Assembly (NCBI GenBank): GCA_003697105.1
Contig: RFFQ01000191.1
Coordinates: 1 to 62,522, forward strand
DNA length: 62,522 nt
Origin: Gemmatimonadota bacterium
GTDB taxonomy: Bacteria > 4572-55 > J002
Direction of reading: 5' to 3'
Below the pieces are notes generated by a model. That model saw only the letters and a program-made list of their open reading frames with translations, did no database searches and had not been told where the DNA came from. Each line of letters begins with the position of its first letter. Positions within the stretch are counted from its first letter, which is position 1. This document shows positions 6,090 to 30,276 of this stretch, piece after piece. A program made the translations under genes and the position numbers.

Positions 6090-9000
6090 CTACCGCTGCG
6101 TGGTTTGGATTCCGGTTGTCGATTGAGGCATTCCCAAAAAGGCTCGAATTTCTTCAATTTGACGTTGATTTTGCGCTTGTGCGGCACGGAGCGCTTCATT
6201 TTCCGCGCGCAGTTGGTCAATTTCGCGTTGTTGATCTTTCATTCCTTCGATGAGCAGTGCCACCAAGTGACTGTAATTGATGGTCTTATATCCGTTGCGG
6301 TCGGTTTGTACCACTTCTGGAATGACCTTTTCCACCTCTTGGGCGATTAAGCCCATTTGTACCCCTTGGGGGAAGTCCTTTTCGGGGAATTTATCACGCA
6401 ACCACTCGTAATTGACCCCGCGCAACTGGAGCACTTTTTCCAGCGCATCTTGAAGTTGGGTGATATTCCCTTTCCACCGCTGGTCGGACAGTTCTTCTAT
6501 TCCAGAGGATTTAAGGGTGCCGTTTACTTCAAATTTGGTGGTGGGGGTGGTTGTACCAATACCAACGGCATCATTTGCCGCATCCACAAAAATGAGATTG
6601 GGGTCAGTGTCGCCTTCGACCCGAAAATCATTTGTACCACCACTTTCATTCACCGTAAATTGCCCTTGCACCACGACATCTAAAGCGGTGACGGTGCCGT
6701 TGACGTCAAGTTCTGTCGTCGGGTTTAAAGTGCCAATACCGACATTGCCATTGGGAAACAGTACTTCCGAGATCGCTATTCCGCTTCGAGAGACCGAAAA
6801 CACCTCGGTAGATGTACTATAATCGTCACTGATCGCTTGAAGCCCCAGCGAGTACCCATCAGAAAGCCATTGCCAAACCCGGCTGTTTGAACTGGCACCG
6901 CCTACATAGGTGATGTCCTTTACCATCATACCTGTTGTCACGGCACGCTTAACGGTGACAGAATCCACACCTTGTAGATTCAGGGTATGAACCGTTGATG
7001 TTGTTCCGGCAGAAAGGTTACCTGTTGTCACAATAGATTGGCTGCCGAAGTCCGGGTTGATCTTTGTACCGCTGATGGTGCTGAGGTCGCTATCGGTGAT
7101 GGTGCCATCCAGAATTTTGTCTCCGGTGACGGCATTCGCGCTCAAGTCGGCATTGGATATACCGCCATCGATGACATGGGTACTATCGATGGTGTTCGTG
7201 GCGATGGATGTTGCTTGTACGTTGGTCAGTTGCGAACCATCCCCGCTAAAGGCGGTGGCGTAGATGGTATCCGCGCTGGCATTACCGGTGGTGGTGATGT
7301 TCTGGCTGCCGAAGTCCGGGTTGATCTTTGTACCGCTGATAGTGCTGAGGTCGCTATCGGTGATAGTGCCGTCTTCGATCTTGGAGCCATCGATCAGGTT
7401 ATTCGCAAGGTCGTTGCGACTAATACTTCCGTCGATGATTTTGGTGCTGTCGATGGTGTTTGTGGCGATGGAAACTGCTGGAACATTGGTTAGCAGAGAG
7501 CCATCCCCGGCAAAACGAGTGGCGCTCACGGAATCAGCACTGATTGCGCCGCTGGTGATAATGTTTTGGTTGCCAAAGTTGGGTGTTATTTTCGTTCCAT
7601 CAATTGCCGCGGTGGCACTTACATCTTCATTGAGGATGGCACCGTTGAGAATTTTATCACTGGTTACCACATTATCGCGCAAGTCTGCATTGGAAACCGT
7701 ACCATTGATGATGTGAGTACTATCAATGGTATTGGTCGAAATGGATGTTGCCGGCACATTGAGCAAGCCAGAGCCATCGCCAATGATTCGGTCGGCATTG
7801 ACTATATCCGCTTGAATATCATCTACGCTTAAATCACCTGTGGTAATAATGGTTTGGGCACCAAAATTCGGTGTGATTTTGCTCCCGGCAATGGTACTAA
7901 CATCGTCAGTACCAATACTACCATCTTGGATATGGCTTCCGTTGATCGCGTTGGGGCGAATATCACTGCCGCTAATACCTCCGTTAATGATGTGGGTGCT
8001 GTCAACCCTATCCGGTTCAATGGAAATCCCGCTCAAATTCGATCCATCCCCCACGAAGGAGGCATAGACGGTGTCGGCTTCGATATTTCCAGCCACATCT
8101 AATTCGCGGGTGGGGATGTTGGTGCCAATTCCGACAAAGTTTCCATCTTTGGGGGCGTATAGGAGTCCATTGTTGATACCGATATTTTCGGAGACCATCA
8201 GATTATTGTAGGTGCCGCTAACTTCCCCGCCAAAGGTAGAATCCACGGTCAAATCGTTGGAGCTATCCATATCCCAATTGGTGAAGGCGGTTCCACTCAC
8301 GCCCCCGTTGATGGTCAATTCCGAGTTGGCATCGTCCCACAATAAATTTGGGGTATTGGAGAGGGTGGTAGGTCCCGTCCAGAATGCCAACCGTCCGGCT
8401 TCACCGACACCGGTTAAACCGCTTCCTTCCAGAGTCACCGGTGTTTCCGTACCGGCTTGATTCATATAATAGAGGCGTCCATCACTACTTTTTACATACA
8501 ATTTGCCATAGCCTAACGAGGGGGTTGGGGTGGTGGTACCGCCGAGGCTAAGTACACCTTCTACCGTTAGCCGCTCGTTCGGTTGAGCTGTACCGATTCC
8601 CACGTTACCATTTGTGCGAACAACAAACAGCGAATCGGTTTCACGCAAATTGGTTTGTCCTAGGATGGCAAATTCTCCGATGGCATCACGCAACACATCC
8701 GAGCCTAAATCAAAATAGGCGCTTCCACCGGAAACGTGAAGTCTGCCGGCGGGGTTATCTGTACCGATTCCGACGTTTCCATCATTGTGGACAACAAGAA
8801 GGGTATCGGTTTCGCGCAAATTGGTTTGCCCTAAGATGGCAAATTCTCCGATGGCATCGCGCAACACATCCGAGCCTAAATCAAAATAGGCGCTTCCACC
8901 GGAAACGTGAAGTCTGCCGCCGGGATCATCTGTGCCGATTCCGACGTTTCCATCATTTTGGACAACAAAGAGGGTATCGGTTTCGCGCAAATTGGTTTGC

Positions 9001-10073
9001 CCTAAGATGGCAAATTCTCCAATGGCATCCCGGCTAGAAGTTCCTGTTAGATCGATAGTTGTCCCGCCAGCAACAAAAAAATTATCGGTCGGGTTGCCAG
9101 TCCCCACCCCCACATTACCATCACTTCGGACGACAAAGAGGGTATCGGTTTCGCGCAAATTGGTTTGCCCTAAGATGGCAAATTCTCCGATGGCATCACG
9201 CAACACATCCGAACCCAGATCAAAGTAGGAATTACCACCGGAGACATGCAATATGCCTTCGGGATGATCGATGCCAATTCCGACGTTACCATCATTTTGC
9301 ACGACGAATAAGGTATCGGTTTCACGTAAGTTAGTTTGTCCTAAGATGGCAAACTCCCCGATAGCATCGCGACCGGCGCCGCCGTTCAAATCGATACGCG
9401 AGCCGCCCTTCACGTGAAGTGTGGCTTCTGGGGAACCGGTACCCACACCGATATTGCCGGAATTTTGGACGACGAATACGGTGTCCGTTTCCCCTTCGCG
9501 CAAATTCGATTGTCCTAAAATCATAAACTCGCCGATGGCATCACGCAATGTAGGGCTCATTAAATTGAACAGTCCGCCCCCTTCCACATGGAGTGTATTT
9601 GCCGGGTCATCCGTACCGATCCCGACATTGCCCTCATTCGTTGCTTTGAGGACCGGGGAATTTCCGTCACGGAGGTTGGATTGTCCCAAAATCGTAAATT
9701 CACCGATGGCGTCTCGATTGCCACCACCGCTCAAATCGAATGTCGAACTCCCGCCCGTGACATAAAATTTCGCGTCGGGATTATCCGTCCCAACACCGAC
9801 ATTTCCATCCGATTGAACGGTAAACCAAATTGACGGTTCACGCAAATTGGATTGTCCCAGAATCATAAATTCCCCAATCGCATCCCGCCCGGGCTGAGTT
9901 CCCAAATCGATTCGGACACCTTGATTACCGACAGTAAACAGGGTATCATTATTGGTGTTGGTAATGCTCAAGGTCTCATCATCCTGAGCTTGAGCATGGA
10001 AGGGGAGCAGACAAACCATTATGAATAATCCCCGAATCAACAACCGGCGAAAATTGAAGTGAGTTGCGTACAT
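6090..10073 (-). CDS. Secreted tail-fibre-like repeat protein with C-terminal peptidase S74 chaperone domain
   Basis: 1327 residues. A signal peptide (residues about 10-30, ending FHAQAQ) is followed by about nine copies of a 55-57-residue unit containing RDAIGEFAILGQTNLRE and GNVGIGTDDP. A second array of about five 85-residue units follows, with NTIDSTHIIDG, GTKINPDFGSQ and FSGDGSQLTNV. The C-terminal 139 residues form a peptidase S74 domain: SDQRWKGNI from residue 1196, MGLIAQEVEKVIPEVV, and YSHLVALLIEGMKDQ. A coiled coil follows (QREIDQLRAENEALRAAQ). In phage tail spikes this domain trimerises the fibre and then cuts itself off at the Ser of the SDxRxK motif, which is present here. The GIGTxxP units are common in bacterial 'tail fiber domain' surface proteins. 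AAAGGA precedes the ATG. No phage genes are nearby, so I read it as a chromosomally encoded trimeric surface fibre. Confidence 0.85.
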   Translation of the reverse strand: MYATHFNFRRLLIRGLFIMVCLLPFHAQAQDDETLSITNTNNDTLFTVGNQGVRIDLGTQPGRDAIGEFMILGQSNLREPSIWFTVQSDGNVGVGTDNPDAKFYVTGGSSTFDLSGGGNRDAIGEFTILGQSNLRDGNSPVLKATNEGNVGIGTDDPANTLHVEGGGLFNLMSPTLRDAIGEFMILGQSNLREGETDTVFVVQNSGNIGVGTGSPEATLHVKGGSRIDLNGGAGRDAIGEFAILGQTNLRETDTLFVVQNDGNVGIGIDHPEGILHVSGGNSYFDLGSDVLRDAIGEFAILGQTNLRETDTLFVVRSDGNVGVGTGNPTDNFFVAGGTTIDLTGTSSRDAIGEFAILGQTNLRETDTLFVVQNDGNVGIGTDDPGGRLHVSGGSAYFDLGSDVLRDAIGEFAILGQTNLRETDTLLVVHNDGNVGIGTDNPAGRLHVSGGSAYFDLGSDVLRDAIGEFAILGQTNLRETDSLFVVRTNGNVGIGTAQPNERLTVEGVLSLGGTTTPTPSLGYGKLYVKSSDGRLYYMNQAGTETPVTLEGSGLTGVGEAGRLAFWTGPTTLSNTPNLLWDDANSELTINGGVSGTAFTNWDMDSSNDLTVDSTFGGEVSGTYNNLMVSENIGINNGLLYAPKDGNFVGIGTNIPTRELDVAGNIEADTVYASFVGDGSNLSGISIEPDRVDSTHIINGGISGSDIRPNAINGSHIQDGSIGTDDVSTIAGSKITPNFGAQTIITTGDLSVDDIQADIVNADRIIGDGSGLLNVPATSISTNTIDSTHIINGTVSNADLRDNVVTSDKILNGAILNEDVSATAAIDGTKITPNFGNQNIITSGAISADSVSATRFAGDGSLLTNVPAVSIATNTIDSTKIIDGSISRNDLANNLIDGSKIEDGTITDSDLSTISGTKINPDFGSQNITTTGNASADTIYATAFSGDGSQLTNVQATSIATNTIDSTHVIDGGISNADLSANAVTGDKILDGTITDSDLSTISGTKINPDFGSQSIVTTGNLSAGTTSTVHTLNLQGVDSVTVKRAVTTGMMVKDITYVGGASSNSRVWQWLSDGYSLGLQAISDDYSTSTEVFSVSRSGIAISEVLFPNGNVGIGTLNPTTELDVNGTVTALDVVVQGQFTVNESGGTNDFRVEGDTDPNLIFVDAANDAVGIGTTTPTTKFEVNGTLKSSGIEELSDQRWKGNITQLQDALEKVLQLRGVNYEWLRDKFPEKDFPQGVQMGLIAQEVEKVIPEVVQTDRNGYKTINYSHLVALLIEGMKDQQREIDQLRAENEALRAAQAQNQRQIEEIRAFLGMPQSTTGIQTTQR
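8638..9360 (-). repeat. Near-identical coding tandem repeats, period about 168-171 bp
   Basis: Within the S74 gene, units containing the same DNA stretches recur with very few base changes. These stretches encode IGEFAILGQTNLRETDT and the VSGGSAYFDLGSDVLRD segment. For example, 'caaaatagg' recurs at 8711 and 8882, 171 bp apart. The DNA-level identity, not only the protein-level identity, suggests recent duplication or ongoing gene conversion. These are contiguous coding repeats with no unique spacers. Confidence 0.8.
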
Positions 10074-10410: not shown

Positions 10411-10430
10411 TTAAAGCCGGTTTGTGTCAA
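10401..10430 (-). promoter_or_regulatory. Probable sigma-70-type promoter for the S74/giant repeat unit
   Basis: On the minus strand, TTGACA (10430-10425) is followed after 18 bp by TATATG (10406-10401). The -35 box lies inside the last codons of the cyclase gene. The predicted start is near 10394, which leaves a leader of about 320 nt. Confidence 0.5.
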
Positions 10431-13400
10431 TATTTTTATCCGACATGAGTGTCTTTATTTTAACATGGTAATCATATTTGGGGGTTTTTTCGTACAAGTG
10501 TTGGTATAATTGTAGTGCGGTTTGGCGATCCATGTCGGTTTGTTTCAAGCGCCAAAGTTCATAATGCAGGCGGGCTTTTTGATCTTCAGGTTGGGGTTCT
10601 GCCAACAACTGCTGGAGTTGCTCCAGGGCGTGTTCGGTTTGACCTTCCGCATGTGTAATTTGTGCCGCTAATACTTGACTTTGAAAGATGCGATCCCGCC
10701 GCCGGACTTCCTGAGAGATTTGAAGACCTTTTATGTTTAATTCTTTTGCTGCGGAATATTGCCCCATCAAAAAGAGCAGTTCTGCTTTTTCGACTAAAAA
10801 CGAGGAGAGATAGTATTTAACCCCCAATTTTGTACCTAAATCAATTGCTCGATCATAGGCATTAAGGGCATCGTCATAGCGGTGCTGGGCTTTATAGACA
10901 TCGCCCATCCAGCCGATACCGGTGAATATACCCATCTGATTGCCCAGTTCTTCACTGAGCATCATGTACTGTTCAAAGCAACTGGCGGCGTTGGGATAGT
11001 CACCCTTATCTTTATAAATATTGCCCATATTGGCGAGTGCGATAGCGATACCGAATTTGTCCCCCAGCTCTTCACCCAGTTTGCGGCGGCGTTCGTAGTT
11101 GAGCATGGCTTGTTCGTAGTCTCCTCGCTTGTAATGTACCGTACCGATATTGACATACGCTTTGGCAATGCCTTCCTTAAAGCCGATGCGTTCACTCAGT
11201 TGGAGTTGCTGGTTGTAATAATCCATGGCTTTTTTATAATCGCCCATTTGCCAGTAGATGAGTCCCAAATTACCGATAACGGATGCCAGTTCTTTTTGGT
11301 CACCCTCTTCTTGGTACAACTGGATTGCCTTCTCAAAATTGGCAATCGCCTCATCCGTTTTGTTTTGGTAGGAATAGACGGCGGCAATCATCCCCACGAC
11401 ACTGGCGATTGTTGTTGTATCCGTTTCGGGGTCTAAGTAGCTCAATGCGGTTTCAAACTGGTTCAGGGCGCCTTCAAAATTTCCTTTTAGATATTCCAGT
11501 TTGCCCACTTGGGCAATGGAACGTCCAATCAACGTCGGGTTATTCAATTTTTGCGCGAGTTCCAGCGATTTTTGGTAGGTGGCTTCTTCAGCTTGCCGGT
11601 TTCCGATGCGTTGCAGGATTTTCCCTTTGCGCAAAAGGATTTCGATATACCTTTTAATCTCACCGGCGTCACGGGCTTCTTCCGGTTGTTCATCCCAGAT
11701 GCTCAGTAATTTGTCAAAGAATTCAAGGGCGCGTTGATTTTCATAGGTTTGATCGGCATAATTTCCGGCTTTATGCAGGTATTCAATGGTTTTGTCGCGG
11801 ACATCCGCCTTTTCATAATGGAAGGCAAGCTCGCCATAATATCGGGAATCATTGGGAAATAATGTTTCAATGGCTTCGGCAACCAGTTTGTGCAACGATC
11901 TCAACTGGTTTTTCAACTGCATCCGATATACGGTATCTTGCAACAGGGAATGCGAAAAGATATATTTCAATTCCGATAACACAGACCAAATATTCTCTTT
12001 TTCTCCTTCTTTTAGCTGGTATTCAATTTCCTGATTTCGGAGAACCGCCGAAAGCAATGTGACTTCAAATTCACGTCCCAAGACCGCCGCGGTTTGCACC
12101 ACTTCTTTCAATTTATCCGACAACCGATCAATGCGGGCAACGAGTAGATCGTTTATGGTGGAAGGGATGCTTTCTCCCGCTTTGACCATCTCCCATATTT
12201 GGCGCTGTGAGTCCATCTGAATAATTTCTGCTTCCCGAAAGTAGAGCAAGGTTTGTTCAATAAAAAACGGGTTGCCTTGTGTTTGGGAATGCAAATTCTC
12301 AATTAGTGTTTCGGAAAGTTGACCCTGCAAAATATCGGCGGCAAGTTCGCTTATACCTTCCCGCGAGAGCGTGTTTAGGTCAATTTCACTGGATTTCGCG
12401 TCTAGGGGGAGTTTGGGGGGTGTACCGTCATCCTGATAGCGGCTAACGATCAGCAAAAAGATGGGGAATGCCTCAATATTGCGGCACAACACCTGAAGTG
12501 CCTTTGTCGAATCCGAGTCTATCCATTGGGAATCTTCCAACTCTAGCACCACCGGTTGGATCAAGCTCATCGCTTTGAAAATTTCTTTAAAGGCATAGAG
12601 GGTATTTTCGTAGCGTAATTTTGGCTCCAGTTGTTCGTAGAGTGAGCCGGGATACGTAATTCCCAAAAATCCGGCGATTACAGACCGTAGGCGGATTAGC
12701 TCCTTTTGTACTGCTTGTCGCATTTGATATGATACATGAGGTTTGCCCCCGGCGGTTTGTTCATCCAAACTCGTGATTAACTGGTGGTAGATTTGTTCAA
12801 AATGGGAGCGTTTTTGCTCAAGGGGATGTTCTGGATTCTGTTGAAAATATTCCATGAACAAATGAGAAAAAGGATTGAATGGCTTTTTAAGGATGCCGTC
12901 GCATGGTAAATAGAGCCATTTGAATGTGTCATAGCGATGTTTGAGTTCCCACACAAACCGGGATTTCCCCACACCGGCTTCCCCATAAATGTAACCGGCG
13001 CCGCCGAATTTTTGGTGAAACAACGGTTGGAACATCGTATTTGCTTGTTCCATTTCCTGCTGGCGACCGACAAATTTACCCGTGAACGTGCGAGAGACAT
13101 ACCGTTGTTTGGATTTCAACCGATAAACCGGTAATGCTTCGGATTTGCCTTTAAATGTATAGGTACCGGCGGGTTCCAGTTCATGGGTGCCTGCCGTCAT
13201 GTGGTAAATAGCTTCAGACACCCAAATTTCGCCGAAGGGGGCTTTCATCATCAGGCGGGCAGAAAGGTTGACCATGTCTCCAATAATGGTATATTCGCAC
13301 CGTTTTTCGCCACCAATAATGCCGGCATAGACCGTCCCGTAAGTGATCCCAAATCGTATGTTAAGCCCCTTCAATTTATCATGGTGGGTCACGTCGGTTT

Positions 13401-14334
13401 TAAGGGACAGGGCAAAATCCAAAGCGCGTTCTATGTTTTTTTCGTAAGCCACCGGCGCCCCAAACACGCAAAGGGCAACACTTCCTTTATCCCCAAAATC
13501 AATTTTATTGAAATAACCGGCGAAGGTTTGCGTGTAATGCAACAACATGGCGATAAAGGTTTCTAATTCGGGGTGGGTAGAGATGCCTTCAAAGGAGATA
13601 AAGACGGAGATGGCATTGCGGAACTCACCCATTTGATTCAAATCCAGCACGGAATCGGGTAAAAAGAGGGAGAGGACGTCGCGGGTAACGGGGGGCAGGG
13701 GTGTGGGAGGTGGTTTTTCCGCGGGATGCGCTACCGCCAACAAGCGGTAATGCGTGTTTCCGACGGATTCCGTTTCAACTTTTTGCGGGTCACACCAACG
13801 TATGGCAAATGGCTCATCTACGACGATTTCTCCCGTATAAGCCTGATGTTCAGAAGCGGCACAGTCGTCAATTGCCTCTCCCCGGAAGAAGTAGGCTTTT
13901 AGGTCTGTCCCGATGATGCCCCATTCCACCTGTCCAAACGAAAGCCCAACTTTCGCCTTGAGATGAAACGTTCCGAATTTGGTTTTTCGCTGTCCATGAT
14001 CCCGGAAGATGTGCTGAATCTGTTCTGCACAACCCAGCACGTGAATACCGTATTGGTTTTCCGCGCCAGCAATAGGAAAAATTGCCGTGAAAGCGTCACC
14101 GGCAAAAGTGGCAATAAAGCCGCCGGTGTCGTATATCGCATCGACCATCGGATTGAAGATTGTATTCAAAATCGAAGATAAGATTTCAGCTCCTTCATCC
14201 CCGCCTTGCATTAATTCCTCGGTCATCTGGGTAAAGCCCGAGATGTCCACAAACATGGTGACCGCAGGGAATGCGCCGTTATCTTGATGGTCTTTTGCTT
14301 TTTCGTAGATGAAATGTGGGATCAGGTTTTTCAT
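10411..14334 (-). CDS. Soluble adenylyl cyclase-like protein: two class III cyclase domains, AAA-type ATPase, TPR array
   Basis: 1307 residues, no signal peptide, so cytoplasmic. The first cyclase homology domain (residues about 20-190) keeps both metal-binding aspartates, in VDISGFT and FAGDAFTAIFP. The second (about 240-390) has lost the first one (VFISFEGIS) but keeps IIGDMVNLSARL. One composite catalytic site between the two domains is therefore likely, as in human ADCY10, which has the same domain order. An AAA/NTPase module follows, with FVGRQQEME, Walker A GEAGVGKS and Walker B VVLELEDSQW. From about residue 850 there are at least nine TPRs (NLGLIYWQMGDYKKAMDYY, ANMGNIYKDKGDYPNAA). It probably makes cAMP (or cGMP) under control of an NTPase/TPR signal-input part. 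It has its own promoter just after mnmE. The nucleotide product is not proved by sequence. Confidence 0.88.
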   Translation of the reverse strand: MKNLIPHFIYEKAKDHQDNGAFPAVTMFVDISGFTQMTEELMQGGDEGAEILSSILNTIFNPMVDAIYDTGGFIATFAGDAFTAIFPIAGAENQYGIHVLGCAEQIQHIFRDHGQRKTKFGTFHLKAKVGLSFGQVEWGIIGTDLKAYFFRGEAIDDCAASEHQAYTGEIVVDEPFAIRWCDPQKVETESVGNTHYRLLAVAHPAEKPPPTPLPPVTRDVLSLFLPDSVLDLNQMGEFRNAISVFISFEGISTHPELETFIAMLLHYTQTFAGYFNKIDFGDKGSVALCVFGAPVAYEKNIERALDFALSLKTDVTHHDKLKGLNIRFGITYGTVYAGIIGGEKRCEYTIIGDMVNLSARLMMKAPFGEIWVSEAIYHMTAGTHELEPAGTYTFKGKSEALPVYRLKSKQRYVSRTFTGKFVGRQQEMEQANTMFQPLFHQKFGGAGYIYGEAGVGKSRFVWELKHRYDTFKWLYLPCDGILKKPFNPFSHLFMEYFQQNPEHPLEQKRSHFEQIYHQLITSLDEQTAGGKPHVSYQMRQAVQKELIRLRSVIAGFLGITYPGSLYEQLEPKLRYENTLYAFKEIFKAMSLIQPVVLELEDSQWIDSDSTKALQVLCRNIEAFPIFLLIVSRYQDDGTPPKLPLDAKSSEIDLNTLSREGISELAADILQGQLSETLIENLHSQTQGNPFFIEQTLLYFREAEIIQMDSQRQIWEMVKAGESIPSTINDLLVARIDRLSDKLKEVVQTAAVLGREFEVTLLSAVLRNQEIEYQLKEGEKENIWSVLSELKYIFSHSLLQDTVYRMQLKNQLRSLHKLVAEAIETLFPNDSRYYGELAFHYEKADVRDKTIEYLHKAGNYADQTYENQRALEFFDKLLSIWDEQPEEARDAGEIKRYIEILLRKGKILQRIGNRQAEEATYQKSLELAQKLNNPTLIGRSIAQVGKLEYLKGNFEGALNQFETALSYLDPETDTTTIASVVGMIAAVYSYQNKTDEAIANFEKAIQLYQEEGDQKELASVIGNLGLIYWQMGDYKKAMDYYNQQLQLSERIGFKEGIAKAYVNIGTVHYKRGDYEQAMLNYERRRKLGEELGDKFGIAIALANMGNIYKDKGDYPNAASCFEQYMMLSEELGNQMGIFTGIGWMGDVYKAQHRYDDALNAYDRAIDLGTKLGVKYYLSSFLVEKAELLFLMGQYSAAKELNIKGLQISQEVRRRDRIFQSQVLAAQITHAEGQTEHALEQLQQLLAEPQPEDQKARLHYELWRLKQTDMDRQTALQLYQHLYEKTPKYDYHVKIKTLMSDKNIDTNRL

Positions 14335-19005: not shown

Positions 19006-19126
19006 ACAATGTATTCCAACGGTTTTCAATTCATTAGCAGGTACATTGACCGTGTTTGTCACTGGCTGTGACAGGGGAGGATGTACCTTTTTCCATCCAT
19101 TCACTCTTCTTTTAAGGAGGTTGTGT

Positions 19127-22075
19127 ATGTTCAGGTTCGTTTCTACATGTTTCATAGTCGTGCTTTTGGCAGTATCGATGGTTTATGCCGGTACGACCGG
19201 GAACATCTCAGGCTCTGTGCACGATTCTGAGACTGGCGATCCTCTTGAAGGGGCGACTGTGTCGCTTCTAGGTACTTCTGTGGGCAGCTTTTGCGATGCA
19301 GAAGGGAATTTTCAACTCTACAACGTGCCCGCCGGGGAATATACGCTGATGATTTCCCTGATTGGATACCAGCAGTTGCAGATTGAGAATTTCCACGTGG
19401 TGCCGGACTTCACCAAGCAGGTTAATGTGGAGTTAAAGCCGCAATCCATCGCAATGGGGGAAGTTGTTGTTAGCGGTGAGCGTGCCCTAATTCAGCGAGA
19501 TGAGACCGCCACCGTTCGTGTCACTACATCCGAAGAAATGCAAAATATGGCACTTCGTACCGCGACTGATGTAGTTGGGCTACAAGCGGGTGTGGTGCGG
19601 GATGCCGGAGGTGCCTTCAAAACCTTGCGGGGATCTGAAACTGCTGAAAATGAAAGTGGCTCCAGCGGGCTTTATATTCGTGGGGGCCGGGGAAATGAAG
19701 TTGCTTTTATCGTTGATGGAGTCAACCAACAAGACCCCATTTCGGGTGCAACCACGACCGCAATCAACAATAACGCCATTGAACAAGTGGTGTTAACGAC
19801 CGGTGGTTTCAATGCCGAATATGGTCGGATTATGTCCGGTGTGGTTAATGTGACCACGAAAGGCGGTGGCAAAGAATATCATGGCTCGGCGGAAATGCTG
19901 ACGGATGCGGTTGCCCCCGGTTTTGGCGCAGATACGTACGAACAAAATGTCTATAGTCTATCTTTAGGCGGTCCGTTGGTTCCGGGCAATGAAAACTTCC
20001 GTTTCTTCGTTTCCGGGGAAATCCGTGATATGGGTGACCGCGAACCCCGTAACGCCGTGATCGAACCGTTTGAAGTTCGCACGGTCAATGGCGAAAAGGT
20101 CAAGTTTACCAACGATGGAAGGTTACCCCATAACTCTTTGGAAGGGTACTCCTTACAAGGTAAGTTGAATCTGGATATTTCGCCGGTGATGGATTTGGAA
20201 TTGTCTGCTTTGGGGTCAGAAAATGACTTTGAGCAGTACATCCATGCGTATAAATACAATATGAAACACGCACCGGAAGTAAATGAAGATAACCTTTCTT
20301 TGGCGGCACGTTTCCGCCACACCCTCGACCCGAAGACGTTTTACACCCTTTCGGCAAATTACTTCTCGACCGAACGTTTCCGTGGTGATGGTGTTCATGG
20401 GCAAAATCTACGTGATTACGGGCGGCTCTCTAACCCGGGCTATAACGACAATTACGATTTGTTCTTGAACGGCGATATTGATACCACGGAAATCAGTCGG
20501 GATGAATTTGGCAATGTCAGTGGGGATGAAGGTCACGTTTTTGCCGACTACGTTAAGCGCGAGTCCTCCTATATTGGATTCAAAGCCGATATGGTAACCC
20601 AGCGGATCAACAATAATGAGATTAAATTTGGGGTTGAATACCAACGCCACACCTTGCGTCGTTATCACGATTTGTATCCTGAGCAAACCGCGGTGATCGG
20701 TTATGATGAAAATGGTGAAGTGCAGTGGCGTCGTTCTTACTACAATCCCGACAACCCAACCACATTTCAAGATGTAAATTCTTACGGGATCGAGTTGAAT
20801 CCGGATAAATTGAAGCAAGGGATCATTGAATTCCAAGATGTGGATGATGGTCCCAATGGCGCCAAGCACCCGATCACGATGTCGGCGTATTTGCAAAACA
20901 AATTAGAATATGAAGGGATTGTGGTCAATTTTGGTCTGCGATATGACTATCTGGATGCTGCAACGGATGCACTTCGCAATGAAGAACGTCCGTTTGCGTT
21001 TGGGGATTCTACCAAGTTTGACGATGCCGATTTGACGGACAGCAAAGCCTACCATAAACTTAGTCCGCGTTTGGGTATCTCCTTCCCGATTACCGAACGG
21101 ATGATGTTCCGCTTTAGCTACGGGAAGTTTTTCCAGCAACCCAATCTTGAAAACCTGTACGTCAATTACGATTTCTTGAGCTATAAGCTTGAGCAGGGTG
21201 GGTACTACTTCCCGATTGGGAATCCGAACCTCAAGCCGGAAGAAACCACCGCTTACGAAATCGGGTTGACTCGCCAAATTGGTGAAAATCTCCGTTTTGA
21301 CGTGACCGCATACTACAAAGATATTAGCGGTTTGGTACAGGTGAAGAACCAACCGGCAAAACCGCGTAGTTTCGCCAGCTATCGCAACAGTGACTTTGGC
21401 TCGGTGAAGGGTTTTGATTTTGCCCTGAAAATGCGCCGGATTAACCATATTGCGCTGGATTTAGCGTACACGCTCTCCCAAGCGAATGGTACAGGCTCCA
21501 ATACCCAATCTCAACGGAACAACGCTTGGACGGGTGAAGAACCGGCAAAATCGGTTTCCCCGTTAGATTTCGACCAACGGCATGACATTAAAGCCACGGT
21601 TGATGTTCGCTTTGGCGAAGATGAAGGTCCTGTTTGGGGCGGTATCCAACCTTTTGAAAACTTTGGTGCTAACTTCATTTTTACGGCGGCAAGCGGTACG
21701 CCATACACCCCGGTTATCGTTCATAACGAAGTCACGTTGGCCTCGGTTTCTACTGTGCCGGATGGTCCGATCAACTCCCGCCGCAAACCGTGGAGTTTTA
21801 ATGTAGATGCTAAATTCACCCGTGATTTTCCGATGCCGATGGGTGATTTTCAAGTTTACCTCTGGATCGAAAACCTGTTTGATGCTCGCAACGTTGTTCG
21901 TGTGTATGAGTCTTCCGGTGACGGCGAAACGACGACATTCCTAAGTACGGAAAACGGTGAACAATTCGCAACCCGAGGACCGGATGCCGTTGAAGTTTAT
22001 CAAGATAAAGAGCGGAACCCGAACAATTTTTCCAAGCCCCGTATGGTACGGTTAGGGTTGGTTTATCAATTCTAA
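19127..22075 (+). CDS. TonB-dependent receptor with N-terminal carboxypeptidase-regulatory-like domain
   Basis: 982 residues from the ATG at 19127, which has AAGGAGG seven bases upstream and opens a good signal peptide (FIVVLLAVSMVYA). A longer in-frame start at 19046 would bury that signal and is rejected. A CarboxypepD_reg-like beta-sandwich comes first (GSVHDSETGDPLEGATVSL, YTLMISLIGYQ). Then the plug (GLYIRGGRGNEVAFIVDGV, IEQVVLTTGGFNAEYGRIMS) and a 22-stranded type barrel with SPRLGISFPITERMMFRFSY, and the terminal strand RLGLVYQF ending in Phe. It sits in the outer membrane and imports or exports a large substrate using TonB energy; the substrate is unknown. It is followed by a large secreted protein and a PorV-like protein, a recurrent arrangement in FCB-group genomes. 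Confidence 0.93.
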   Translation: MFRFVSTCFIVVLLAVSMVYAGTTGNISGSVHDSETGDPLEGATVSLLGTSVGSFCDAEGNFQLYNVPAGEYTLMISLIGYQQLQIENFHVVPDFTKQVNVELKPQSIAMGEVVVSGERALIQRDETATVRVTTSEEMQNMALRTATDVVGLQAGVVRDAGGAFKTLRGSETAENESGSSGLYIRGGRGNEVAFIVDGVNQQDPISGATTTAINNNAIEQVVLTTGGFNAEYGRIMSGVVNVTTKGGGKEYHGSAEMLTDAVAPGFGADTYEQNVYSLSLGGPLVPGNENFRFFVSGEIRDMGDREPRNAVIEPFEVRTVNGEKVKFTNDGRLPHNSLEGYSLQGKLNLDISPVMDLELSALGSENDFEQYIHAYKYNMKHAPEVNEDNLSLAARFRHTLDPKTFYTLSANYFSTERFRGDGVHGQNLRDYGRLSNPGYNDNYDLFLNGDIDTTEISRDEFGNVSGDEGHVFADYVKRESSYIGFKADMVTQRINNNEIKFGVEYQRHTLRRYHDLYPEQTAVIGYDENGEVQWRRSYYNPDNPTTFQDVNSYGIELNPDKLKQGIIEFQDVDDGPNGAKHPITMSAYLQNKLEYEGIVVNFGLRYDYLDAATDALRNEERPFAFGDSTKFDDADLTDSKAYHKLSPRLGISFPITERMMFRFSYGKFFQQPNLENLYVNYDFLSYKLEQGGYYFPIGNPNLKPEETTAYEIGLTRQIGENLRFDVTAYYKDISGLVQVKNQPAKPRSFASYRNSDFGSVKGFDFALKMRRINHIALDLAYTLSQANGTGSNTQSQRNNAWTGEEPAKSVSPLDFDQRHDIKATVDVRFGEDEGPVWGGIQPFENFGANFIFTAASGTPYTPVIVHNEVTLASVSTVPDGPINSRRKPWSFNVDAKFTRDFPMPMGDFQVYLWIENLFDARNVVRVYESSGDGETTTFLSTENGEQFATRGPDAVEVYQDKERNPNNFSKPRMVRLGLVYQF

Positions 22076-25403: not shown

Positions 25404-26423
25404 ATGAGACCTACAAAAGTCTTGACTCTAATATTGATTGTTGGGTTGGCACTTGGTCTGACCGCAACAGATGCGCTTGCTGGCGCAGACCGTTTGGGTA
25501 CCGCAGGTGTTCAACAATTGCGTATTCCCCCGACCGCTCGAGGGGCGTCTTTGGGGGGTTCGGTTGTCAGTGATGCCGCCGGTCTGGAGGCTATCTATTG
25601 GAATCCCGCCGGTTTGGCGGCCATAGAGCGCTCCGAAGCTATGCTCTCCTATTCGTCTTATATCGCGGATATGAGCTTTTACATGTTTGGCGCCGGTTTT
25701 AACACTGATTATGGTACCTTTGGATTTTCTTTTCGAGGGTTGGATGTGGGGGAAGAGATTGAAGTGACCACCGAAGCCCAACCCGATGGTACCGGGCAAA
25801 ACTTTAACCCCTTTTTGATGATTGCTGGTGTGACCTATGCGAACCAGTTTACGGAACAAATTTCGGTGGGAGCGTCGGCAAGTGTGGTACATGATGAAAT
25901 TCATGAAGTCTCCGGCTCGACCCTCTCCTTTGATTTTGGTATTCAATATAAAACCCCTTTTCAAGGCTTGGGTTTAGGGATTGTCTTTAAGAATTTCGGA
26001 CCCGGCATGAATTATGACGGTGCCGGTCTGGAAGTTAAAGAAAAGATCACAGGTGATGACCCCGGTGCGCAGCCCCGTCCGGTGCGCTTTCAGGTGGCTA
26101 CCGCTGACCAACCGACCTATGTACAATTCGGTGTCTCCTATGATGCGTGGAGTAACGATATGCACTTGGTCAAAGTCCAACCCACCTACCGGAGCAATGG
26201 CTATTCTGCCGACGAATTTACCATGGGTCTGGAGTACAGCTTTCAAAATCAATTGTTTGTCCGTACCGGCTTGATGACCGCCGATCAGGATGAATATATG
26301 AATGATTTCTCTTTTGGTGCCGGGCTAAAGCTGGGTGATTTCACCTTTGATTACGCCTACGGAAATGATGCCAATGATTTTCTGGGCACGAAAAACTGGT
26401 ACACCCTGAAGTTCGCCTTCTAA
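25404..26423 (+). CDS. PorV/PorQ-family outer membrane protein
   Basis: 339 residues. A signal peptide (about residues 1-26, ending ATDALA) is followed by the family signature GTAGVQQLRIPPTARGASLG, SVVSDAAGLEAIYWNPAGLA and, later, LGLGIVFKNFGPGM. The rest is beta-barrel, ending WYTLKFAF with a terminal Phe. PorV is the outer-membrane shuttle that takes type IX cargo from the translocon to the attachment complex; PorQ is related. Whether this organism has type IX secretion cannot be judged from the window. It follows the secreted protein gene with a 98-bp gap and an AGGAG site, and probably belongs to the same unit as the TonB receptor. Confidence 0.87.
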   Translation: MRPTKVLTLILIVGLALGLTATDALAGADRLGTAGVQQLRIPPTARGASLGGSVVSDAAGLEAIYWNPAGLAAIERSEAMLSYSSYIADMSFYMFGAGFNTDYGTFGFSFRGLDVGEEIEVTTEAQPDGTGQNFNPFLMIAGVTYANQFTEQISVGASASVVHDEIHEVSGSTLSFDFGIQYKTPFQGLGLGIVFKNFGPGMNYDGAGLEVKEKITGDDPGAQPRPVRFQVATADQPTYVQFGVSYDAWSNDMHLVKVQPTYRSNGYSADEFTMGLEYSFQNQLFVRTGLMTADQDEYMNDFSFGAGLKLGDFTFDYAYGNDANDFLGTKNWYTLKFAF

Positions 26424-26577: not shown

Positions 26578-28494
26578 ATGTTATCAAATAAAACCGTTAT
26601 GTTCATGCTTGTGATCCTCTCGGCAAGCCTGCTTGCCATGACATTATTGAATGGGTGTGGGGATGATCTGAATGATTCCATTACCACATTTACCGCGCGA
26701 TCTATCACAGTAGATCAGAGCAGTGCCACTTTAGTACCGGGCGATGAGTTTGAACTGCGTGCACATGCTTTTGATCAAAATGGCGACGAAATGATCTATG
26801 CCACATTCAATTGGGTTTCCAGTGACCCGAATGTAGTCACGGTAGTGGGCGAGACCGATGGTACACCGGTAGCCGGTAGTGGTGCCGTCTTGACCGCCGT
26901 TGCCGTGGGCAATGCCACGATCACCATCAGTGTAGACCCAGATTATCAGGGTGCCGCTCCGGTAACCGTTAATGTGAGTGTTGTACCCGGCATGGTAACA
27001 AATGTGGCGGTCGATACCGACCCAACCCTAGATTATGTGGATGTCAGTTGGGATGCTGTCCCCAGCACGGTCGATATTACCTATGATGTCTTCCGCTCAA
27101 CGGTTGAAGGTGAGACCGGTACAGCGGTTGCCACTGGTTTAACAGAAACCAGTTACCGGGATGTTGTACCGGAAACCGGTGTGGATTATTACTACTCGGT
27201 TCAGGCAACAGGTAATGGAGCAACCGGTGATATGTCGGATGCCGCCGCCGCCAGTGCGGTCGGTGCAATTCCCGCGGATTGGTTTGATTCCTTTTATGAA
27301 GAACATGAGGCGTGGGATAATGCCTATGGTCCCGATCCCTTATTGGGCGCAGCGCATGGCTCCAATGACCCCTATGTTCGTACGGTGTATGGCACCGGCA
27401 CTTATGATGATGGGTATCCCGTGGGTACCGTCATTGTGAAACGCTTGACGGACATCAATACCGGTGAAATGCCAGAAGTTGCCGGAGCGATTACCGCCAT
27501 GCGAAAGCGGAGTGATGGATACTATCCCGATAATGGCAACTGGGAATGGTTCATGCGCGCAGAAGATGGCTCCTACATGAGCGGTGGTAACTTAGGCGAT
27601 GGCATGTGTAACAACTGTCACGCCGGCGCCGGTGAAAGCTATGTTTTTGATCATTCATCGGGTGTTGAAGAATTCTTCGCCAGTAATCTGGATTTTGCCG
27701 GTTATGATAGCTGGACCAAAATCGATTATACCGTTTATCCCACGGCTTTTGCGGAATTGGGTGGTTTTGCGCACTCCCCTGACAGCAACCATGTGCGTGG
27801 CGTGTACACCAATGAGGTGGAAGGATTAGGTCAATTAGTCGTGAAAGAAGTCTTTTCGTGGGATGCAGACAACAACAAAGTTGTCAATGGCATCACCGCA
27901 ATGGCAAAACGAGGTGGCGACTTCAATGCGAGTAATAGCAACTGGGAATGGTTCTTCTTGGATGCTACTGACGGTACGATTATGCAACGAATGGGTGAAG
28001 AGGCTGGTTGTAACGGCTGTCATGCCGCCGCACCCAATGATTACATTTTTGACCACCCCGCAGAATATGTTGTCGATGACCCGATGGCGATGTTTGAAGA
28101 TGCGCATACCCATCTGCCGCTCTGGGCGAGCAATATCGGTACAGACCCCTTCTTGCAAGGCGCTCATGGGGATAGTACGGAATATCAACGCGATATTTAT
28201 AAATGGCAACCGGCGGCTCTTCCGGAAGATGGTGCTTATCCGATTGGAACGATCATTGTTAAGCGGTTAACCCATCCCGATACGGGTGATATGCCCGATA
28301 GTCCCGGTGCGATTACTGCCATGGTCAAACGAGGCGATGATTTTAATTCCGAGAATGGCAATTGGGAATGGTTCATGCGCGGTGCTGACGGTACGTATGT
28401 TCGTGGTGGCGCAGAAATGGGCTGTAATGGCTGCCACGCCAATGCTACCGGTGAAAATGGTACCGATTACGTTTTTACGCAGCCGGGTGAATAA
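26578..28494 (+). CDS. Triheme lipoprotein with Ig-like, FN3 and three tandem cytochrome P460 domains
   Basis: 638 residues. A lipoprotein signal (lipobox LLNGC) is followed by a BIG2-like domain (SITVDQSSATLVPGDEFELR), an FN3-like domain (near 140-235) and three copies of a 135-residue domain. Each copy has G-x-x-x-VK (Lys 288, 423, 562), GAITAM.KR or similar, NWEWF, a CxxCH (344-348, 478-482, 616-620) and a closing DYVF-type motif. These are features of cytochrome P460, a c-type haem protein in which a lysine is cross-linked to the haem and which oxidises hydroxylamine in ammonia oxidisers. All three copies keep the candidate Lys at a constant 54-56 residues before the CxxCH. AAGGAGG precedes the ATG. 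Expected to be tethered to a membrane on the periplasmic or outer face. Activity is not proved; electron transfer or NO/hydroxylamine detoxification is possible. Confidence 0.85.
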   Translation: MLSNKTVMFMLVILSASLLAMTLLNGCGDDLNDSITTFTARSITVDQSSATLVPGDEFELRAHAFDQNGDEMIYATFNWVSSDPNVVTVVGETDGTPVAGSGAVLTAVAVGNATITISVDPDYQGAAPVTVNVSVVPGMVTNVAVDTDPTLDYVDVSWDAVPSTVDITYDVFRSTVEGETGTAVATGLTETSYRDVVPETGVDYYYSVQATGNGATGDMSDAAAASAVGAIPADWFDSFYEEHEAWDNAYGPDPLLGAAHGSNDPYVRTVYGTGTYDDGYPVGTVIVKRLTDINTGEMPEVAGAITAMRKRSDGYYPDNGNWEWFMRAEDGSYMSGGNLGDGMCNNCHAGAGESYVFDHSSGVEEFFASNLDFAGYDSWTKIDYTVYPTAFAELGGFAHSPDSNHVRGVYTNEVEGLGQLVVKEVFSWDADNNKVVNGITAMAKRGGDFNASNSNWEWFFLDATDGTIMQRMGEEAGCNGCHAAAPNDYIFDHPAEYVVDDPMAMFEDAHTHLPLWASNIGTDPFLQGAHGDSTEYQRDIYKWQPAALPEDGAYPIGTIIVKRLTHPDTGDMPDSPGAITAMVKRGDDFNSENGNWEWFMRGADGTYVRGGAEMGCNGCHANATGENGTDYVFTQPGE

Positions 28495-28525: not shown

Positions 28526-28562
28526 AAAAACCCCATCATCACAATATGATGATGGGGTTTTT
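28526..28562. terminator. Bidirectional rho-independent terminator
   Basis: A perfect 16-bp stem (28526-28541 with 28547-28562) and a five-base loop. The A tract on one side and T tract on the other serve both the P460 gene (plus) and the kinase gene (minus), which converge here. Confidence 0.92.
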
Positions 28563-28581: not shown

Positions 28582-30276
28582 TCATGATGAGGTCACTGAA
28601 CCCGGTGGATTCACCGGTAGTGTGAAAAAAAAGACCGACCCTTTACCAACTTCACTTTCAACCCAGATTTTGCCATGATGCGCCTCTATGGCAAGTTTGC
28701 AAAAGGTGAGCCCTAACCCAGAGGAATATTTTTCGCCTTGAGTGCGTTGGGTTTTTAATTGTCCGAATTTCTCGAAAATCGTACTAAAATATTCTTTGGG
28801 GATTCCCCGACCTTGATCCGCTACCGAGACACAAATCTCATTTTCTTCAAATAATTGCGCCCGGATGATTACCGTGGAGTTTTCTTCCGAAAATTTGATC
28901 GCATTGCCGATTAAATTAACCAGTGTGCGCATAATCTTTTCATGGTCCATCGGAATTGCCGGTAAATGGGGATTGACATGGACCTGAATCTCAATCTGGG
29001 CATTACGGGCAGTGCCAATCACTTGAGCGACGGCGGCATCGATGACATCACCGATGAAATTGGTCTCCACGTCTAATGTCATTTTGCCTTCTTCAAACTT
29101 GGTTACATCCAGCAAATCATTGATCATCTTGAGGAGCCATTGGCTGCTTTCCACAGCGCGATCAAGGCAATCTCGCGCATCATCCGAAATATCACCTGCC
29201 ATCCCCGAAAGGACAATGTCCAGATAGCCGAGAACCGATGTTAGCGGGGTGCGGAGATCATGGACGACCATATTGACCAAATCGTCTTTCATTTTATCCA
29301 GCCGTTTTAACTGTTGATTTTTGCTCTTTAGGCTGGTAAATAGGGTGGCATTATCAATAGCGATTGCACTTTGGTTGGCAATCACCTGACAGAATTCAAT
29401 ATCATCTTTTTCAAACGGGGTACCGGTGCGCCGCCCTTTGAGCGTGATGACACCAATATTCTGTTGGCGCACTCTTAGCGGCAATACGAGGGTGGTTTCG
29501 TTGGAATCCACTTCTTCTTCATACCGTTCGCCATCCGCCACAATATTGATTTTATTGGTCTTATGAATGACCACCGGTTTGTGAGTTTTTAGTGCCTCCA
29601 CAAGCTCCGGATATTGGTCCAACGAGATAATAGACCCCAAATAACGCGGGTTTCGTTTTTGCTTATTGTAAGCCGCACGGATATGACCACGAGTTTGACT
29701 CCGATCCACTGAAATCAATGTGGCTTGTTCCACCCGCATCAATTCCACTAATTTGGAGATGGTGATCTGGAGTACCTGATTTAAATCCAATGTGGAACTA
29801 ATGGTTGTTGAAATTTCATTGATGGTCTCTAATTTTTCAATTTTGCGGTCAGAATATGTTTTTGCCGCCACAAGTGTGCGTTTTTCTTCATCTAACCGGC
29901 GGTGGACTTCCCGGCTCCGTATCAGATTTTCCACCCGTGCAACCAATTCCTTTGTATCTATCGGTTTTGTCAGATAATCATCTGCGCCGGTTGAGAGTCC
30001 GGCAATTTTATCCTGTACGCTTGTTTTTTTCGCTGTCAGTATCGCCACGGGGATGTGTTGCGTTTCGGGGTTTTCTTTCAGCTTTTTTGTGGCTTCAATC
30101 CCATCCATGCGCGGCATCATTACATCCATCAAAATGACATCCACGTCGGGTGTGACACGCTCCAAGGCTTCGATTCCATCGGTCGCCGTCAAAACCGTGT
30201 GCCCCCCTTGTTCCAGCAAATAGGTCAATAGACTAATGTTTGTTGGTGTGTCATCTACAACAAGTATTTTTGCCAT
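28582..30276 (-). CDS. Response regulator receiver-GAF-histidine kinase protein
   Basis: 564 residues, no membrane segment, cytoplasmic. The receiver domain comes first (residues 1-120: DD at 8-9, phospho-acceptor Asp51 in ILMDVMMPRMDG, Lys in LTKPI). A short coiled coil and a GAF domain (about 150-310) follow. HisKA has the phospho-acceptor His in MVVHDLRTPLTSVLGYLD. The HATPase domain shows the N box NLIGNAIKFS, G1 VADQGRGIP and G2 GLGLTFCKLAIEAHHG. A receiver placed before the kinase suggests that an upstream kinase, or the receiver's own state, gates kinase activity. The output regulator is not next to it. It has its own promoter. The GAF ligand is unknown. Confidence 0.92.
   Translation of the reverse strand: MAKILVVDDTPTNISLLTYLLEQGGHTVLTATDGIEALERVTPDVDVILMDVMMPRMDGIEATKKLKENPETQHIPVAILTAKKTSVQDKIAGLSTGADDYLTKPIDTKELVARVENLIRSREVHRRLDEEKRTLVAAKTYSDRKIEKLETINEISTTISSTLDLNQVLQITISKLVELMRVEQATLISVDRSQTRGHIRAAYNKQKRNPRYLGSIISLDQYPELVEALKTHKPVVIHKTNKINIVADGERYEEEVDSNETTLVLPLRVRQQNIGVITLKGRRTGTPFEKDDIEFCQVIANQSAIAIDNATLFTSLKSKNQQLKRLDKMKDDLVNMVVHDLRTPLTSVLGYLDIVLSGMAGDISDDARDCLDRAVESSQWLLKMINDLLDVTKFEEGKMTLDVETNFIGDVIDAAVAQVIGTARNAQIEIQVHVNPHLPAIPMDHEKIMRTLVNLIGNAIKFSEENSTVIIRAQLFEENEICVSVADQGRGIPKEYFSTIFEKFGQLKTQRTQGEKYSSGLGLTFCKLAIEAHHGKIWVESEVGKGSVFFFTLPVNPPGSVTSS

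Follow-up and report, generated by a model that had tools for sequence, protein, structure and literature searches.

The window, the complete 62,522-nucleotide stretch of Gemmatimonadota DNA analysed here, carries on its forward strand a gene for a lipoprotein in which three cytochrome P460 units lie behind two Ig-like domains. Each unit contains one CXXCH motif (starting at residues 344, 478 and 616) and a lysine 56, 55 and 54 residues upstream (Lys288, Lys423 and Lys562) in a VKR, VKE and VKR context, as the initial annotation had reported for all three copies. The features are as follows.

19046-22075, +: TonB-dependent receptor gene, upstream of the P460 gene
22147-25305, +: gene for a secreted protein of 1052 aa whose C-terminus gives weak T9SS-type matches, lying between the TonB receptor and PorV/PorQ genes
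25404-26423, +: PorV/PorQ-family protein gene, directly upstream of the P460 gene
26578..28494, +: lipoprotein gene (open reading frame, 638 aa), three P460 units C-terminal to Big_2 and Fn3-like domains
26578..26658, +: signal peptide ending in LLNGC, Cys27 presumed lipidated (sequence, lipobox pattern, relatives)
26698..26937, +: Big_2 Ig-like domain, residues 41-120 (PF02368, 24.6 bits against a cut-off of 22.8)
26986..27225, +: Fn3-like domain, residues 137-216 (phmmer match to PDB 3mpc, E 8.5e-08)
27286..27660, +: P460 unit 1 (type B'), with His260, Arg268, Lys288, Thr306 and CNNCH at 344
27439..27441, +: Lys288 codon, matching the cross-linking Lys70 of N. europaea P460 (alignments)
27670..28065, +: P460 unit 2 (type A), with His399, Arg407, Lys423, Thr440 and CNGCH at 478
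27844..27846, +: Lys423 codon, Lys70 column (alignments)
28087..28491, +: P460 unit 3 (type B), with His530, Arg538, Lys562, Thr580 and CNGCH at 616
28261..28263, +: Lys562 codon, Lys70 column (alignments)
28526..28562, no strand assigned: hairpin with a perfect 16-bp stem, a loop of 5 bases, and an A-run and a T-run in the two arms (read from the sequence)
28582-30276: receiver-GAF-histidine kinase sensor gene, converging on the P460 gene

Domain architecture and genomic setting

The reading of this gene as a lipoprotein with three tandem P460 domains was borne out by profile searches, in which the Pfam profile PF16694 (Cytochrome_P460) matched the whole protein in three stretches with 81.3 bits, and the isolated units 1, 2 and 3 with 30.1, 26.2 and 36.6 bits (cut-off 27), unit 2 alone falling slightly below. 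Scores this large are not chance. The BIG2- and FN3-like domains described in front of the units were recovered as well, Big_2 above its cut-off and the Fn3-like domain through 3mpc. Membrane tethering is also supported, by a lipobox at Cys27 that is imperfect in carrying an atypical Asn at -2 (identified by pattern search only); the loose lipobox pattern is found in 12 of 13 inspected relatives, whose lipoboxes are clearer than that of the window protein.

Surface display had been proposed from a neighbouring TonB receptor and PorV-like protein. The PorV/PorQ gene does adjoin the P460 gene, but the TonB receptor gene is not adjacent, the 1052-aa gene lying between them, and a profile search gave no match to a C-terminal T9SS sorting domain in the triple-P460 protein. 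Across five tandem loci no conserved neighbour was found; since such genes are flanked elsewhere by unrelated ones, the neighbourhood yields no functional lead, and surface display is left without support beyond the lipoprotein signal. The hairpin downstream, absent from the pattern-scan results, is a probable terminator between the P460 gene and the converging sensor gene. Elsewhere in the window, positions 10411-14334 (-) encode a 1307-aa protein that joins a guanylate-cyclase domain, an AAA ATPase and many TPR repeats, and positions 6090-10073 (-), in a chromosomal setting, a protein of 1327 aa that carries a Peptidase_S74 (endosialidase chaperone) domain close to its C-terminus; Peptidase_S74 is often a phage tail feature.

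The source genome encodes one COX1 (haem-copper oxidase subunit I), and NrfA was not found in it. No nitrogen-cycle gene occurs among the neighbours scanned, in a search that did not extend to ammonia/methane monooxygenase and HAO. One haem-copper oxidase and no NrfA fit an aerobe and name no substrate.

Family placement and the distal pocket

A profile built from eight units (from the window and loci L007, L008 and L009) recovered N. europaea P460 first in the PDB (E 1.6e-11), followed by Nitrosomonas sp. AL212 P460, M. capsulatus P460 and the c'-beta proteins; the first residue of L007 unit 1 in this alignment is D for G, which leaves the columns discussed here unaffected. These profile matches place the protein in the P460/c'-beta superfamily as a c-type cytochrome and lipoprotein. 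The lysine column of the three units aligns with Lys70, Lys106 and Lys78 of known P460s, confirming the haem-crosslinking position expected by the initial annotation, and in the first alignment with Phe61 of Thermus c'-beta, as Table 2 of PMC11928373 requires. Profile match and lysine alignment together mean that the earlier P460 identification stands. By column identity each lysine is a candidate for the haem cross-link, and all three units look competent for cross-linked haems.

AlphaFold2 models, computed from alignments 8-11 sequences deep (window and related-locus sequences), were of low confidence both for the three-domain chain (pLDDT 64, pTM 0.49) and for unit 3 (pLDDT 69, pTM 0.67), too uncertain to place haems or lysines or to yield distances between the haems. 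All Foldseek matches of the low-confidence unit-3 model with probability >0.85 were P460/c'-beta proteins (E 1.5e-03 or worse, TM 0.37-0.52, and 0.44-0.52 to P460s), the best being 2je2 (probability 1.00, E 1.5e-03, TM 0.44), and all probability-1.00 matches of the low-confidence three-domain model were P460s. Within the limits of the poor models, these matches agree with the five-stranded antiparallel beta fold of P460/c'-beta proteins.

The distal carboxylate column, occupied by Glu96, Asp102, Ala131 and Gly82 in known proteins, is Thr306, Thr440 and Thr580 here. This column and the lysine column are unambiguous in three profile-profile alignments and consistent with Table 2 of PMC11928373; an alanine at the acid column in a phmmer alignment, which was one residue off, was replaced by threonine in the profile alignments. 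Among 37 close units, the lysine is kept in 35/36, the arginine of the Arg44 column in 36/36 and a histidine of the capping loop in 35/35, and an aspartate or glutamate at the carboxylate column occurs in 0/37. At the Arg44 column, AL212 P460 and the c'-beta proteins of M. capsulatus and Thermus have a histidine. The N. europaea P460 sequence has the spacing F-x-x-x-R, and the Phe41/Arg44 numbering of PMC11928373 is off by one.

All structurally characterised P460/c'-beta proteins cap the pocket with Phe or Arg (PMC11928373). The cap Phe of solved Phe-cap proteins lies four residues before the Arg/His column, whereas the histidine of the window subfamily lies eight residues before the arginine, and because of this difference in spacing we call it a capping-loop histidine. 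By sequence it is probably homologous to the cap position. As a proven cap it was ruled out, since its loop to the arginine exceeds that of the solved proteins by four residues and the histidine falls beside the Phe column of N. europaea P460 in the profile alignment rather than on it. By analogy with M. capsulatus P460, which is capped by Arg, the arginine could serve as cap in the window units. Histidine at the exact cap-Phe spacing is found in a single-domain group of Desulfuromonadia. This group, comprising L060-L083 and similar loci, is large, carries the motif xPHG, keeps the lysine and has Thr at the acid column; its pocket looks like a common, uncharacterised one, in counts that are biased by a search seeded with the window subfamily.

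The closest characterised state, judged from these columns, is that of AL212 P460 (NsP460, 6amg), which shares the family, the CXXCH motif, the cross-link lysine and the lack of a distal carboxylate (Ala131 in place of the window's Thr). It differs in being a single domain with a Phe76 cap and His80 where the window units carry His and Arg, and the descriptions covered here report no lipid anchor or Ig-like stalk for it. The P460s of N. europaea (2je2/2je3) and M. capsulatus (6hiu) share the family and the lysine (Lys70 and Lys78), and N. europaea P460 also the arginine at the Arg44 column; both differ in having their own Glu96 and Asp102, in oxidising NH2OH and in being single-domain. The cytochromes c'-beta (6hih, 7ead, 7s5o) are of the same family and lack the carboxylate, but have Phe or Met at the lysine column and no cross-link, whereas the window units keep the lysine in 3/3.

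Tandem relatives and the origin of the three-unit form

A sample of about 1000 genomes, searched with the window subfamily as seed, contained nine two-unit P460 proteins. Four are from Calditrichota genomes, which account for every positive among 39; the others are from a Desulfuromonadales MAG (L007), from L087 and L088, which belong to one family, from L037, and from L090, where a contig end truncates the protein. The class of the Ignavibacteria MAG contains close relatives with a single unit. No relatives were found in a scan of viral contigs, and the window gene is the only P460 gene found in the source genome, where two further matches have E above 5. The search for tandem copies elsewhere that the initial annotation had proposed thus succeeded, and its view of a tandem arrangement as unusual needs dividing: the stalked three-unit form was found only in the window within this subfamily-seeded sample, but two-copy relatives exist in several phyla. 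P460 proteins in the literature covered are single-domain; no account of P460 domains in tandem emerged from this partial coverage, made up mostly of titles and abstracts, and the words tandem, fused and multi-domain are absent from the 2025 review (PMC11928373).

The two-copy lipoproteins of Calditrichota and the Desulfuromonadales MAG (L008, L022-L024 and L007) resemble the window protein in unit subfamily, tandem layout and lipobox; they differ in having two units and a length too short for a Big_2/Fn3-like stalk, and the L007 protein also in an extra class I-type cytochrome. P460 units and a class I-type cytochrome c share one chain in two relatives, L007 and a gene at L087. The latter (L087:2200-3027, -) is lipoprotein-like, adjoins the two-copy P460 gene L087:1060-2196, and encodes one P460 unit plus a planctomycete/class I-type cytochrome (PF07635, PF13442), with a cysteine in the cross-link lysine column (LVCETF). 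In a Calditrichota MAG, a 410-aa multi-CXXCH cytochrome (L008:3735-4967, +) is encoded upstream of the two-copy P460 gene.

In the unit tree, window units 1 and 3 are sisters (98/92) among second copies, and unit 2 groups weakly with first copies (89/61). Because of this grouping, the simplest history is a two-copy A-B lipoprotein ancestor whose B unit was probably duplicated to the front, giving B'-A-B. In the two-unit proteins the carboxylate column is Leu or Met in 8/9 first copies and Thr in 8/8 second copies, from which their two haems are probably differentiated; the combined pattern is seen at L008, L007, L022, L023, L024, L087, L088 and L090. Unit 2 of the window breaks the first-copy pattern, with Thr instead of Leu/Met.

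Proposed function and alternatives

The explanation that we favour, and to which as a whole we give an even chance, is a stalked P460/c'-beta lipoprotein with three ligand-reactive haems that would not be an efficient classical NH2OH oxidase and that would derive from an A-B ancestor. The Big_2/Fn3-like stalk would hold three P460-fold domains off the membrane, with a single c-haem bound at the CXXCH of each, and each haem would be lysine-cross-linked in air, as the haem-copper oxidase of the genome suggests. The haems would be five-coordinate sites at the cell envelope, either binding NO or reacting with peroxide or with species derived from NO. They would also exchange electrons with a cytochrome c, soluble or membrane-bound, as suggested by the two relatives in which P460 units and a class I-type cytochrome c are fused. 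We infer the substrate of the haem sites from no more than a few pocket columns. The invariant histidine could take the proton-relay role of the absent carboxylate, and since loss of the lysine gives N. europaea P460 peroxidase-like activity, a lysine-retaining pocket speaks mildly against a peroxidase.

One alternative is that these are three classical NH2OH-oxidising sites, making up a tripled detoxification enzyme with the histidine as proton acceptor. The lysine kept in all units and a polar distal loop with invariant His and Arg would suit such an enzyme, but every close unit lacks Asp or Glu at the Glu96/Asp102 column, and AL212 P460, a 'halfway house' that is cross-linked and without carboxylate (Ala), does not oxidise NH2OH until a Glu placed at that position brings activity back, so that the lysine cross-link alone is insufficient (PMC11928373). 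By this precedent, the threonine that replaces the carboxylate in each unit weakens the initial suggestion of three hydroxylamine-reactive sites of the known kind. The genome also lacks NrfA, and the scanned neighbours include no nitrogen-cycle gene; we regard this reading as unlikely. A non-catalytic NO-binding buffer resembling cytochrome c'-beta would share the fold family and the absent carboxylate, but c'-beta has Phe or Met for the lysine, and hydrophobic pockets in two of three solved proteins, where the window units keep the lysine and polar residues; we consider it very improbable.

Three separate haem domains in one anchored chain, the fusion of relatives to class I-type cytochromes and the invariant distal-loop histidine, a possible sixth ligand, would also suit an electron-transfer protein, in which tethered monohaem domains with low-spin haems pass electrons by diffusion or short hops. 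The tethered triheme PgcA of Geobacter sulfurreducens (PMC11520253) offers a precedent, likewise with three separate monohaem domains per chain, but it carries electrons to minerals and has PT-repeat linkers that are absent from the window protein, and the likeness is one of analogy only. Solved P460-fold proteins are, however, ligand-binding or catalytic, and a retained cross-link lysine, together with P460 potentials as low as those reported (about -340 to -424 mV; PMC11928373), has no evident purpose in a wire; an electron-transfer role is thus improbable in our judgement.

Tentatively, and with somewhat less than an even chance of being correct, the units may belong to a widespread, uncharacterised class of P460 pockets with its own chemistry, in which the lysine is kept, the acid is replaced by Thr or Leu/Met and a histidine stands at the Phe cap; tandem proteins would pair two distinct haem types, marked by Leu/Met in most first copies and by Thr in second copies, and the B'-A-B protein of the window would be a three-haem elaboration.

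In summary, the stalked three-copy protein is a real variant within the known P460 family, and its histidine-containing, carboxylate-free and lysine-keeping pocket recurs in several phyla, also in tandem. The function of 'halfway house' P460 proteins is named as unresolved in the 2025 review (PMC11928373), and such a pocket would make it possible to test directly which purpose the haem-lysine cross-link serves where NH2OH oxidation is not the job.
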